Positions 13,386 to 43,240 of a stretch of 44,084 bases of DNA are shown one piece after another. The notes beneath the pieces were generated by a model. That model made no database searches and was not told the DNA's origin. It worked only from the letters and a program-made list of their open reading frames with translations. The DNA lies in the NCBI GenBank assembly GCA_018004935.1, contig JAGNBF010000066.1:1-44084 (forward strand), given 5' to 3'. The first letter of the stretch is position 1; each line of letters begins with the position of its first letter. A program made the translations under genes and the position numbers. Source of the DNA: Chloroflexota bacterium. Its GTDB lineage: Bacteria; Chloroflexota; Anaerolineae; Promineifilales; Promineifilaceae.

Positions 13386-13436
13386 TGTAGGGCGATTTGG
13401 CAAATCGCCCGGACGATTTACCAAATCGTCCTACAA
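13386..13436. repeat. Family F palindrome, intact copy F1
   Basis: Reads tgtagggcgatttggcaaat, then cgcccggacgatttaccaaa and tcgtcctaca, an imperfect inverted repeat. A nearly identical copy is at 25119-25168 and two further copies lie in 22659-23097. It is the reference for reconstructing the interrupted copy there. Confidence 0.85.
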
Positions 13437-22550: not shown

Positions 22551-22677
22551 AGGGTTTCAGATTCCAGATTTCAAGTTTCGAGTTGAGAGTTTCGAGTTAG
22601 GTGAGTAGGTAAAAGCGATAAACACGGATAAAGAGAACACGGATAGAGCGAGGGCATTTGTAGGGCGATTTGGTAAA

Positions 22678-22919
22678 GGGTGTGTTTCATTGCGGTTGAG
22701 TCGTAGGGGCGGGGCAACCGGGGGAAATATTGACTGATCACCCCAACGTGTTCTCCCGGTTGCCTCGCCCACCTGCCCACCAAGGCCTTGTCTGCTACCA
22801 GGGTGGGACAGGTGGGAGATGAGGCCAGGGTGAAAAGATGAGGCCAACCCCACCTGTCCCACCCCTACCCATTGTGACAATTGAGCATAGCTGTTATCCA
22901 ACTCATTGGAAACACACCC
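22678..22919. mobile_element. 242-bp miniature element with 9-bp target duplication
   Basis: The ends GGGTGTGTTTCATTG and complement of CAATGAGTTGGA...GGAAACACACCC form terminal inverted repeats with 11 perfect outer bases. The direct repeat TTTGGTAAA flanks it at 22669-22677 and 22920-22928. The interior is GC-rich and palindromic, non-coding. The right end of another copy is at 43195-43207, again next to family F sequence. Confidence 0.9.
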
Positions 22920-22955
22920 TTTGGTAAATCGCCCAGTTGTTCAGAGGACGATTTA

Positions 22956-23090
22956 CCAAATCGGGCATGGTTCAGGTCAGCTTTACAAATTTGTAGGACG
23001 ATTTGGTAAATCGTCTCGTGGGCGATTTACCAAATCGCCCTACAAACTGTTAAGCACCGTTTGCGGACTTTTGAACCATGCCCCAAATCG
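22956..23090. mobile_element. Family G element, long copy carrying an internal family F copy
   Basis: The element (22964-23082) has ends GGCATGGTTCAGG and TTTTGAACCATGCC, flanked by perfect CCAAATCG (22956-22963, 23083-23090). Its middle (about 22991-23044) is another family F palindrome. So F lies inside G, which itself lies inside F. Confidence 0.88.
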
Positions 23091-23102
23091 TCCTACAGTT
23101 TC

Positions 23103-23219
23103 TTATCCGGTAACTATTCAGACCCTAAAGGTTTTGACCTCTGGTGATTCTGGCCTCCTGTTAATCAAAACCTTTAGGGTCTCTCTGGCAAAAGTGCCAC
23201 CTGAATAGTTACCTTATCC
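23103..23219. mobile_element. 105-bp nested palindromic element with 6-bp duplication
   Basis: The outer arms GGTAACTATTCAG / CTGAATAGTTACC (23109-23213) enclose a second stem ACCCTAAAGGTTTTGA / TCAAAACCTTTAGGGT. TTATCC flanks it on both sides (23103-23108, 23214-23219). Removing it restores cttatccgtgtttatcccat, a common intergenic repeat. Confidence 0.78.
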
Positions 23220-23277
23220 GTGTTTATCCCATCCGTGTTATACACCTCTTCACGCACCACGCAATACGTACCACGTC

Positions 23278-25098
23278 CTAACCAAGTAGTTGATACGCAA
23301 AGCGCAGTTTCATCTCCTGATGTTCAATTTGCTGTTCGTTTTGGTACGAGCCGTGACCGGCATCAAACCAATGGATACGTATACTTTTACCCAGTGAGTT
23401 GAGTTTTTCCTCATAAACCTGCATTTGTCGGGCGGGGCAACGGGTGTCGTTGGCTCCCTGGATGACCAGAATGGGGGCAGAGACAGCCTCGGCGTAGGTG
23501 AGGGGTGAGGCGGCGCGATGGGCGTCTGGTTTTTCGTCCGGTGTGCCGCCGAAGAGGGCGCGTTGGTAGCCACGCAGGGTCTCGGCCTGATCTTCATACA
23601 TCAAGGCCCAGTCAGCGATTGCCACCGTCGCCATGCCCCCGGCCCACAGTTCGGGCCGTTTGCCCAGCCCTTGCAGGGTGAGGTAGCCGCCGTAGGAGCC
23701 GCCCGTCAGCAGGATGGCATCCGGGTCGGCGATGCCGTGTGTGATCAGCCAGTCGTGCGCGGCCGCGAGGTCATCTACTTCCCATTGCCCCAAATTGCCC
23801 CAAATGGCCTGCTCAAATTCCTTGCCGAAGGTGGTAGAGCCACGATAGTTGATACTCAGGAAGGCGAAGCCGTGATCCAGATACGCCTGGGCTTCCGGGC
23901 TGTACGCTTCGGTGGTGACGGCGGTGGGGCCGCCGTGAATGTGCAGAATGGTGGGGAAAGGGCCAGCCCCTTCCGGGGTAGCCACCCAGGCCTGGATGGT
24001 GGCCCCGTTGGTAGATGGAAACGAGACCGAAGACCAGGGACGACCGCCGGGAGCGTCTGCGGCCGCGAGCACCGTCCGCTTCATTTCCCCTGTGTGGGCG
24101 TCCAGGGCCACCAGTTGGGCGGGCGTCGTGGCGTTTTGCCAGGTCAGGAAAATCTCGTCGTCGGGCATGAACTGGCCGCCACTGAAACCGCCGACCGTGC
24201 CGCCGGGGTGGTTCAGTTTATGTAAACGATTGTCGCGCAAATCGTAGAGGTAAAGCTGGTATTCGGCCTGGTTGAGCTGGCGCAGGAGCAGACACTGACC
24301 ATCCGGCGACCAGTCCCAGACGGAAATTTCGCCGCCCAGGTCAGGCAGGGCCAGGTCGGTGCGCTCATTGGTGCGGGGGTTCCAGATAAGCGGCCGCATA
24401 AAACCGGATTGGTTGCTGGTGGCCGCCAGCCGCATGTCACCGGGCACAGGGGAGAACCGGGCCGGTTGGATGCTGGTGTTTTCATCCCCCAATTCGCCGA
24501 TTTTGTCCCCGGTTGTCAGGTCGAAGGCGACGAGGCTGTATTCGTTGCGGCCGGTGCGTTCGGTGGTGGCGACCACACCGATTTCGCCCCCTTGTGACAG
24601 GGTGGGGCCAAAGGAGAGGGCGCGGGAATGCCACAGCGGCCGCGGTTCGCCTAATGTGCCGTCTGCGGCCGCGTCCATGATATTGGCCTGGAAGCCGTCC
24701 CGTCCGGCGGTCATGAAACCGATGCGGTTGCCTGCCTGGCTATGGTTGACGCCAAAGGATGAGTAGAGGGGCAAATTGGGTGTAATGTCTTGGGCGGGAC
24801 CCCCGGCAAAGGGGACACGGACATAATGGCCGAGTTCGTTGCCTTTGTCATCGTTCAGGTAGTAGATGAATTGCCCATCGGCGGAGATACTACCGACGAT
24901 TTTGCCCCGTTCGTGGTGGGTGAGTTGGGTGAGCTGGCCGGTGGGCACGTCCCAGGCGTAGAGCTGGAAGACGCCGGTCTGGTTGGTGCAGGCGAGGCCA
25001 CGGGTGGGGTTTGCGGCCGCGGTGAACGCATAAGCGATGATGGCGGTGCGGAAGCGTTCGCGCCAGGGGGCATCGTTGCGGAGATTGAGTGGTTGCAT
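23278..25098 (-). CDS. S9-family serine peptidase (prolyl oligopeptidase/acylaminoacyl peptidase type)
   Basis: Cytoplasmic serine peptidase or related hydrolase of 606 residues; no signal peptide is seen. The N-terminal half (about 30-340) is a propeller with PD40-like blades (SVWDWSPDGQCLLL, GSISADGQFIYYLND). The C-terminal alpha/beta hydrolase has HIHGGPTAVTTEAYS, the nucleophile in GGSYGG (S468), the acid D551 in GANDTRCP and the base H582 in DAGHGSYQNEQQ. The length and triad order are normal for S9C. The start follows AGGAG at 8 bases. Six GCGGCCGC copies occur, the most in any gene here. Confidence 0.93.
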   Translation of the reverse strand: MQPLNLRNDAPWRERFRTAIIAYAFTAAANPTRGLACTNQTGVFQLYAWDVPTGQLTQLTHHERGKIVGSISADGQFIYYLNDDKGNELGHYVRVPFAGGPAQDITPNLPLYSSFGVNHSQAGNRIGFMTAGRDGFQANIMDAAADGTLGEPRPLWHSRALSFGPTLSQGGEIGVVATTERTGRNEYSLVAFDLTTGDKIGELGDENTSIQPARFSPVPGDMRLAATSNQSGFMRPLIWNPRTNERTDLALPDLGGEISVWDWSPDGQCLLLRQLNQAEYQLYLYDLRDNRLHKLNHPGGTVGGFSGGQFMPDDEIFLTWQNATTPAQLVALDAHTGEMKRTVLAAADAPGGRPWSSVSFPSTNGATIQAWVATPEGAGPFPTILHIHGGPTAVTTEAYSPEAQAYLDHGFAFLSINYRGSTTFGKEFEQAIWGNLGQWEVDDLAAAHDWLITHGIADPDAILLTGGSYGGYLTLQGLGKRPELWAGGMATVAIADWALMYEDQAETLRGYQRALFGGTPDEKPDAHRAASPLTYAEAVSAPILVIQGANDTRCPARQMQVYEEKLNSLGKSIRIHWFDAGHGSYQNEQQIEHQEMKLRFAYQLLG

Positions 25099-25118: not shown

Positions 25119-25168
25119 TGTAGGGCGATTTGGCAAATCGCCCGGACGATTTACCAAATCGTCCTACA
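25119..25168. repeat. Family F palindrome, intact copy F3
   Basis: Nearly identical to 13386-13436 (tgtagggcgatttggcaaat ... cgtcctaca). It sits just upstream of the S9 peptidase start, as F1 does for the antiporter. The following stretch to 25400 contains cacggat-type repeats (25220-25262) and four to five tandem gaatagt units (25361-25390). Confidence 0.85.
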
Positions 25169-36489: not shown

Positions 36490-37506
36490 TTATTCTTGAG
36501 TACGGGTACGAATCCGTCTGGTCAAAATAACAATACCCAACCCCATAATGATGGCTACCAGTAACAAGCCGTTGGAACCACTGCTTTGCCCATTAACAGA
36601 GGCTAACTGAACATCTGTTGGGGGAACCGTTGGCGTTGCCGTTGGCGGTTCGGCTGTAGCAGTGCTGGTTGGCGTTGCCGTTGGCGGTTCGGTGGTGGCG
36701 GTGCTGGTTGGTGTAGCCGTTGGCGGTACTGCTGTGGCGGTGCTGGTTGGTGTAGCCGTTGGCGGTACTGCTGTGGCGGTAGCAGTAGCTGTAGCGGTGG
36801 CTGTAGCGGTGGCTGTAGCTGTAGCTGTAGCTGTGGGGGTAGGGGTTGCCCCACCGACAGCCACACAACCGGTGGTTGTCAACTCGCTAACCGTCAGGTT
36901 GTACGGGCCAGCTGGGCCAGGAGGCACAGCACCAGTAGAGTAACCATCAACGACGATGTAATACGTTTGTCCAGTGGTGGCGGTAAAGTCTACCTGCTCC
37001 GTCACCCCCGCAACACCATCGTCGTCCACGACCACACAGTCACTCAGGCTATTAGTACATTGAGCCAGATATACAATCAAAGACAAATCTTCAGAACCAG
37101 TTGGATCCATGCTTACTCGTAAGTTACAGGTTTGATCAACCGCTAAAGCATACGTAGCATCCGCGGCGGTTCCAGTTCCAGTATAGATGCCTCCAGCTAT
37201 TCCCGCGCCTACAGGTCCGCCACCATCAATCGCTCCGGGAGCCAGGCAGGTTGGGTCAACAGTGTCGGCGGGTAAATCGTAATTGTCGGTTTTGCCGACG
37301 GTTGTGCCGGTATCGTTAAAAGGAAAACTCCCGGTTATTTGCGTCGCGGCAGTGCAAACATCACCCCCATCTTGGGGGGAAAACAAGCTGGAGCTATTTT
37401 CTTGCCCTTTGGCGGGTGACCAGACCAACCAGGCCACGAGGGCCAGGTTGAACAGGAAAAACAGTCCAAACCGATTTGTCTTATTTTGCCATAACCTTTG
37501 TATCAT
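36490..37506 (-). CDS. Surface protein with PPC-like domain, Thr/Pro repeat stalk and C-terminal anchor
   Basis: 338 residues. A signal segment (13-31) is followed by a beta-rich region of about 170 residues (TYALAVDQTCNLRVSMDP, SLIVYLAQC, GQTYYIVVDGYS) that matches the bacterial pre-peptidase C-terminal (PPC) pattern. Then comes a low-complexity stalk (about 220-300) of TATA dipeptides and four 13-residue PPTATPTSTATA units. The end is a membrane helix NGLLLVAIIMGLGIVILTRR with Arg-rich tail, like a sortase-independent wall anchor. No enzyme domain is present. Function unknown; display or adhesion is a guess. Confidence 0.82.
   Translation of the reverse strand: MIQRLWQNKTNRFGLFFLFNLALVAWLVWSPAKGQENSSSLFSPQDGGDVCTAATQITGSFPFNDTGTTVGKTDNYDLPADTVDPTCLAPGAIDGGGPVGAGIAGGIYTGTGTAADATYALAVDQTCNLRVSMDPTGSEDLSLIVYLAQCTNSLSDCVVVDDDGVAGVTEQVDFTATTGQTYYIVVDGYSTGAVPPGPAGPYNLTVSELTTTGCVAVGGATPTPTATATATATATATATATATATAVPPTATPTSTATAVPPTATPTSTATTEPPTATPTSTATAEPPTATPTVPPTDVQLASVNGQSSGSNGLLLVAIIMGLGIVILTRRIRTRTQE
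36627..36840. repeat. 39-bp minisatellite plus hexanucleotide repeat inside the surface protein gene
   Basis: About four 39-bp units (gttggcgttgccgttggcgg...) encode the PPTATPTSTATAV repeat. They are followed by ggctgtagctgtagctgtag hexamers encoding Ala-Thr. Such arrays change copy number readily. Confidence 0.85.
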
Positions 37507-43100: not shown

Positions 43101-43194
43101 CACCCCCGATTTTGCCCGCCGCGTGGGTTCCCCTGGTTAATCATTCACCAATTCACGAATTCACCGATTCATTATTTTCTTCCTCTCAACTGAA

Positions 43195-43240
43195 ATGAAA
43201 CACACCCTTTGTCAAATCGCCCTACAAATTGTTTAGGGCG
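43195..43240. repeat. Right end of the 242-bp-type element next to a half family F copy
   Basis: gaaatgaaacacaccc (ending 43207) equals the terminal repeat of 22678-22919 and is followed by tttgtcaaatcgccctacaa, the right half of F. The left part of the element is missing. The stretch 43140-43175 is attcaccaattcacg-type repeat. No gene in 43101-43275. Confidence 0.75.

Follow-up and report, generated by a model that had tools for sequence, protein, structure and literature searches.

Palindromic REP sequences were described in 2006 as targets of insertion sequences (ISs), with the symmetry axis included among the points of insertion (PMC1525189). GTAG-tagged repeats have been reported from Chloroflexi, and their RAYT genes may be lost (PMC3733652). 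The ISKra4 group generates 8- to 9-bp target duplications and has been reported upstream of sigma-A promoters (PMC3942029). The locus considered here lies at 22660-23220 of the window, by which we mean the whole stretch of 44,084 nucleotides that was analyzed (contig C27 of an 8.0-Mb genome assembly of 229 contigs, 96.6% complete). The rest of the genome was covered by searches, by selected stretches, and by a sample of 800 kb. It contains a GTAG palindrome, which we call F, and three miniature elements, which we call E, G, and H.

F is a GTAG-tagged REP-type palindrome, usually found as paired hairpins arranged head-to-head. An intact copy reads GTAG-stem-centre-stem and then the same reversed (GTAGGGCGATTTGGCAAATCGCCC GGACGATTTACCAAATCGTCCTAC). 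The stems are 9 bp long, the centre is 3 nt, and copies occur in head-to-head pairs and in tandem clusters. This agrees with the definition of GTAG REPs and REPINs taken from PMC3733652, namely GTAG at the foot of a short-stem palindrome, pairs, and clusters. Two intact double hairpins occur in the window, at 13387..13434 and 25120..25167. One end of each immediately precedes the ribosome-binding site of an open reading frame (ORF) on the minus strand, which in the second case spans 23278-25098. Across the genome, a half-site pattern of F gave 544 forward and 563 reverse matches, each palindrome usually matching on both strands, and the reversed control pattern gave none.

No RAYT (Y1) gene flanked by F was found in the genome, where the one Y1 match had no F nearby. 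With no candidate gene, we rejected a RAYT as the current mover of F in this genome. The single Y1 domain is at the end of a 389-aa protein (L155, C65:3416-3664), and relatives also have proteins of 380 to 450 aa with this weak match, which suggests a host gene derived from a transposase. F also forms tandem arrays with a 102- to 106-bp unit that includes AGGAG-TTCCCC-ATG (L156, C11:1928-2785; L157, C21:10963-11812; and L309, near 5188). Many of these units hold a small start-like signal, and a leader peptide in the unit (ATGGGCCTACGG...) was considered and rejected, as the frame is not kept from unit to unit.

At the nest, the F double hairpin occupies 22660-23096 and is split by E and by G. 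The left part of hairpin 1 (GTAGGGCGATTTGGTAAA; 22660..22677, plus strand) ends with the left copy of E's 9-bp target duplication, TTTGGTAAA (22669..22677), which comprises the centre and inner stem of the hairpin. E, a 242-bp MITE with 11-bp inverted repeats GGGTGTGTTTC and ISKra4-type ends, follows at 22678..22919 on the plus strand, and the right copy of the duplication is at 22920..22928. The segment at 22920..22963 (plus strand) holds the remainder of hairpin 1, an 11-nt linker (AGTTGTTCAGA), and the left part of hairpin 2, up to and including the left copy of G's 8-bp duplication, CCAAATCG (22956..22963). G is a 119-bp MITE with inverted repeats GGCATGGTTCA (22964..23082, plus strand), and an F copy at about 22993..23043 (plus strand) is a constant part of the 119-bp G family. 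The right copy of G's duplication (23083..23090) begins the remainder of hairpin 2, which has CTAC at its end (23083..23096, plus strand). Adjacent to F is H, a 103-bp MITE with ends GTAACTATTC...GAATAGTTAC and IS66-like termini (23110..23212, plus strand), between two copies of its 8-bp duplication, CTTATCCG, at 23102..23109 and 23213..23220. The terminal inverted repeats are paired at 11 of 11 positions in both E and G.

An earlier note, made from the letters of this DNA, had described the locus as a nest of miniature elements that can be read back to F. The nest is real and layered, and its boundaries and duplications are observed directly. The 242-bp length and the duplication given for E were correct (the latter being TTTGGTAAA, 9 bp), as were the duplication given for G (CCAAATCG, 8 bp) and the F copy inside it. 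The third insert is present beside F, but it had been described as 105 bp with a TTATCC duplication, whereas 17 genome copies of 103 bp with 8-bp duplications fix the ends of H. Removal of the inserts had also been said to restore matches to the copies at 13386 and 25119; this holds for the hairpins, with one substitution, but not for the linker AGTTGTTCAGA, which is absent from both intact copies and from every other locus of this genome that was compared. The outcome named beforehand as refuting, a failure of rejoined F to align with other copies, did not occur: the alignment scores were 80 and 85, far above the shuffle maxima of 20 and 26, and the left or right half alone scored 33 or 46.

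All four families are multicopy in the genome, with recurring terminal repeats and duplications, so the nest is not due to chance. It would have been built by separate insertions, with E entering hairpin 1, G entering hairpin 2, and H entering an adjacent tccgtgtttatcc repeat. Since none of E, G, and H lies within another, their order cannot be read from the nesting. The distances of these copies from their family consensus (E, 6/243; G, 2/119; H, 1/103) hint that E may be the oldest insert and H the youngest, a weak signal owing to variation at the level of copies. Motifs of the ATCCGTGTT/AACACGGAT type are scattered at 22601-22660 and 23210-23250 and in other intergenic regions; one of them received H. 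Elsewhere in the window, 39-bp tandem repeats (36590-36823) lie inside a minus-strand frame (36490-37506), and a 97-bp direct repeat (1-97 and 167-263, 97% identical) surrounds a GC-rich palindrome. An Rfam search of the window returned no match.

Ends of the E family gave 134 pattern matches in the genome, and a control pattern gave 0. One solo end abuts the F hairpin half TTTGTCAAATCGCCCTAC at 43187..43207 of the window (minus strand). The complete set comprises 40 copies of 146 to 458 bp (at most two mismatches in the ends), each with a 9-bp target duplication in which at most one mismatch was allowed. Most were retrieved with E-based searches, the first of which also included F. For 29 of these copies, the empty site is at most three mismatches from the F core, and the point of insertion does not vary: it is the exact axis of the hairpin. 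To set this against chance, we used an 800-kb sample (five large contigs and the start of a sixth, picked regardless of elements), which holds 94 F hairpins and gives a probability of about 1.2e-4 (about 1 in 8,500) per insertion; the binomial p is about 1e-105. In the same sample, an F half directly adjoins 11 of the 13 exact E ends (two mismatches allowed). Repeated targeting of noncoding palindromes, as the earlier note had proposed, is thus strongly supported for E.

E occurs in either hairpin of F, and in F alleles with the centres GGT, GGC, ACC, and GCC. Among 79 segments from the outer flanks of E (130 to 330 bp outside), no pair aligns over 150 bp or more, so the copies look like separate insertion events. 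The 25 E copies whose duplication is exactly TTTGGYAAA/TTTRCCAAA are all in F. Empty exact 9-mers, however, are common outside F (31 of 93 in the sample, a ratio of 62:31) and carry none of these 25 copies, which argues that the arms of F matter. The remaining 11 of the 40 copies lie outside F with 9-bp duplications of their own; at these sites, 4.9 of 11 flanking pairs are palindromic, against a background of 2.7, and one site, CCTGTCAGG, lies within AAACCTGTCAGGTTT, itself palindromic. Beyond this genome, nearly all finds of the E/F junction came from assemblies of Anaerolineae and other Chloroflexota, which suggests that the window belongs to that group. In other Anaerolineae, 38 of 50 junctions have the CGA arm, which the search pattern had left free.

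A pattern scan of other species yielded a 1672-bp element with both ends of E (L254, JAGRDI010000340.1), and the same sequence context recurs in a relative (L317, genome G015). Its open frame of 529 residues matches the ISKra4 transposase model NF033572 at 292.9 bits (cut-off, 205). E is identical to this element over 22 to 23 bp at each end (left, GGGTGTGTTTCATTTCGGTTGA; right, GGGTGTGTTTCAAATGAGTTGAA), so that E has the ends of an ISKra4-encoding element, and its 9-bp duplication is within the 8 to 9 bp of ISKra4-derived MITEs. The ISKra4 element adjoins a TTTTGCCAAA site. Ends of this kind also occur in two further loci, L261 (1626 bp, 506-residue frame) and L318 (relative G011). No matching 9-bp duplications were seen at these intact ISs: L254 runs to a contig end and the flanks of L261 do not match. 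Several of the relatives' genomes hold shorter E-like elements whose 9-bp duplications match. The search that was positive in relatives found no ISKra4 transposase in the window's own genome (G000, 96.6% complete), so mobilization in trans rests on a relative's element. E may be inactive at present. A hidden autonomous copy at several contig ends was considered and proved unneeded, as those ends match a 265-bp E variant in L161. The E variants in L161 and at 22678-22919 of the window differ in inner length, apparently through other GC-rich palindromic inserts, and nesting may continue inside E.

G has over 40 near-complete copies in the genome; 35 copies of 119 bp have 8-bp duplications. Its short length, inverted terminal repeats, constant duplication length, and many copies are those of a MITE; no cognate transposase was found for it. 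The body of G contains an F pair, and F copies borne by G harbour 14 E ends, which indicates that G spreads the target of E. At L108/L215 (C50:7606-8644), several G copies form a chain with short CTCTAC/GTAGAG spacers and masked stretches between them. H has about 20 near-complete copies in the genome, mostly 98 to 99% identical. IS66-type elements have GTAA termini and 8-bp duplications. H, like IS66-type MITEs, begins with GTAA and has 8-bp duplications; the IS66 transposase (PF03050) was not found in this genome, and control genomes were positive. Judged by its ends, H would be a MITE with IS66-like termini and putative IS66 membership. Repeated targeting of palindromes had been suggested for these inserts as well, but the F core occurs in only 3 of 44 empty sites of G-type elements with duplications and in 1 of 33 for H-type elements. 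The insertions of G and H at this locus look incidental.

The explanation that we consider very probable is that E, an ISKra4-family MITE, was put in trans at the axis of F and that G and H are independent MITEs. E would be the nonautonomous partner of a Mutator-type DDE transposase that, acting in trans, would cut with a 9-bp stagger centred on the CGATTTRSYAAATCG palindrome axis and paste E in. A stagger so centred would account for the duplication TTTRSYAAA being the hairpin centre plus inner stem, and the hundreds of copies of the site in this genome would account for the targeting of F. G, with an F pair as its body, would insert at AT-rich 8-bp sites without preference for F and so provide new targets for E, and H would also insert without such preference. 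What we infer is that an ISKra4 transposase moves E in trans, as well as the geometry of the reaction. Against this explanation stand the missing ISKra4 transposase in this genome, the 11 of 40 copies outside F, the relatives' intact ISs without demonstrated matching 9-bp duplications, and the location of published ISKra4-group elements upstream of sigma-A promoters and not in palindromes (PMC3942029). The missing transposase would also suit another reading, in which a different transposase family moves E and its ends resemble those of ISKra4 by convergence. We regard this as improbable, given the identity of 22 to 23 bp per end with an element from the same family of bacteria, the TTTTGCCAAA site next to that element, and the similar ends of the second such element in relative G011.

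F lies on both sides of most E copies, as it would if E and F amplified jointly as one composite with the F halves as part of the unit. We rejected this, and give it next to no credence: E is found in one or the other hairpin, in more than one F allele, and within G; the outer flanks are unrelated; hundreds of F copies have no E; and 11 E copies outside F have their own duplications. Equally implausible is insertion anywhere, with survival only in harmless F-rich intergenic DNA. The free F clusters inspected do lie between genes, but survival cannot explain why insertions in F fall on a single base, and G and H, likewise MITEs, are not enriched in F. A variant of the trans-mobilization explanation holds that the transposase reads an extruded hairpin (a cruciform or single strand) and not double-stranded sequence. 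Single-stranded F folds far better than shuffled versions of it (z, -6.6 to -10.7). Exact 9-mers that lie outside F palindromes are spared, and the non-F sites of E also tend to be palindromic. However, the same data would be expected of a dimeric transposase that reads a symmetric 15-bp sequence in double-stranded form, and in the predicted fold of F both hairpins merge into a single long stem, where the E site does not form a loop. We consider shape-reading possible but rather unlikely. A broader picture, which we hold somewhat more doubtful still, is an ISKra4-type system in Anaerolineae specialized on extruded REP hairpins, reading the shape of DNA and not its sequence, and fed by the hairpin-multiplying G, with unrelated small elements forming an interdependent network.

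The hairpins also have a recurring position relative to genes. A GTAG hairpin often has its end immediately upstream of a Shine-Dalgarno motif and about 16 to 24 nt from the start codon. In this genome, a ribosome-binding-site cassette (CTACATTTTCGTAGGAG or close to it) ends 21 of the 27 F clusters outside G, and after 11 of those 21 cassettes comes the start codon of an ORF with 80 or more codons. Among 24 hairpin ends at loci of other Anaerolineae, 10 have a start codon 16 to 31 nt downstream, together with a Shine-Dalgarno-like motif. For random positions the figure is 3 to 4%; as these are mostly coding, the real excess relative to intergenic DNA is lower. The spacer between hairpin and start is a fixed cassette in this genome and is unrelated among other Anaerolineae. 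The arrangement is seen at 13387-13434 and 25120-25167 of the window and at L280, L288, L289, L296-L299, and L309 of the same genome, and in other species at L219, L229, L237, L239, L262, and L275. Should this position of the hairpins turn out to have a function, every insertion of E at such a site would amount to a natural mutation in a 5' leader.

With these results, MITEs that have ISKra4-type ends join the elements that target a palindrome axis; the preference reported for this family is a different one, upstream of promoters. The dozens of independent E insertions are material for the question of whether transposases read sequence or structure, and one miniature element, G, carries the target of another, E. 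A literature search for ISKra4 and palindrome targets, which left most subscription journals outside its range, found no evidently relevant paper by title. The combination of ISKra4-type MITEs, Anaerolineae GTAG hairpins, and a target-spreading carrier provisionally looks new.

F shares with GTAG REPs and REPINs (PMC3733652, PMC3116915) the GTAG tag, head-to-head pairs, and tandem clusters; it differs in that no typical RAYT was found here, many copies have a ribosome-binding-site cassette, and a MITE carries it. With the ISKra4 family/p-MULT 4 Mutator-like elements (PMC3942029), E shares terminal inverted repeats, 8- to 9-bp duplications, and, for its putative partner, the transposase profile NF033572. 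Those elements are reported upstream of sigma-A promoters, whereas E lies at a palindrome axis and encodes nothing. ISPsy8, ISRm22, ISPpu9/10, and ISPa11 (PMC1525189), like E, use one fixed point of a repeated palindrome, and their rejoined halves restore the REP; for ISPsy8 and ISRm22, that point is the symmetry axis, as for E. In type 1 of that study, every copy is at the same REP position, whereas E is in F in 29 of 40 copies, at the same position whenever it is there. The REP-targeting ISs are full ISs of Proteobacteria with duplications of 0 to 6 bp, whereas E is a nonautonomous element of Anaerolineae with 9-bp duplications and ISKra4-type ends.
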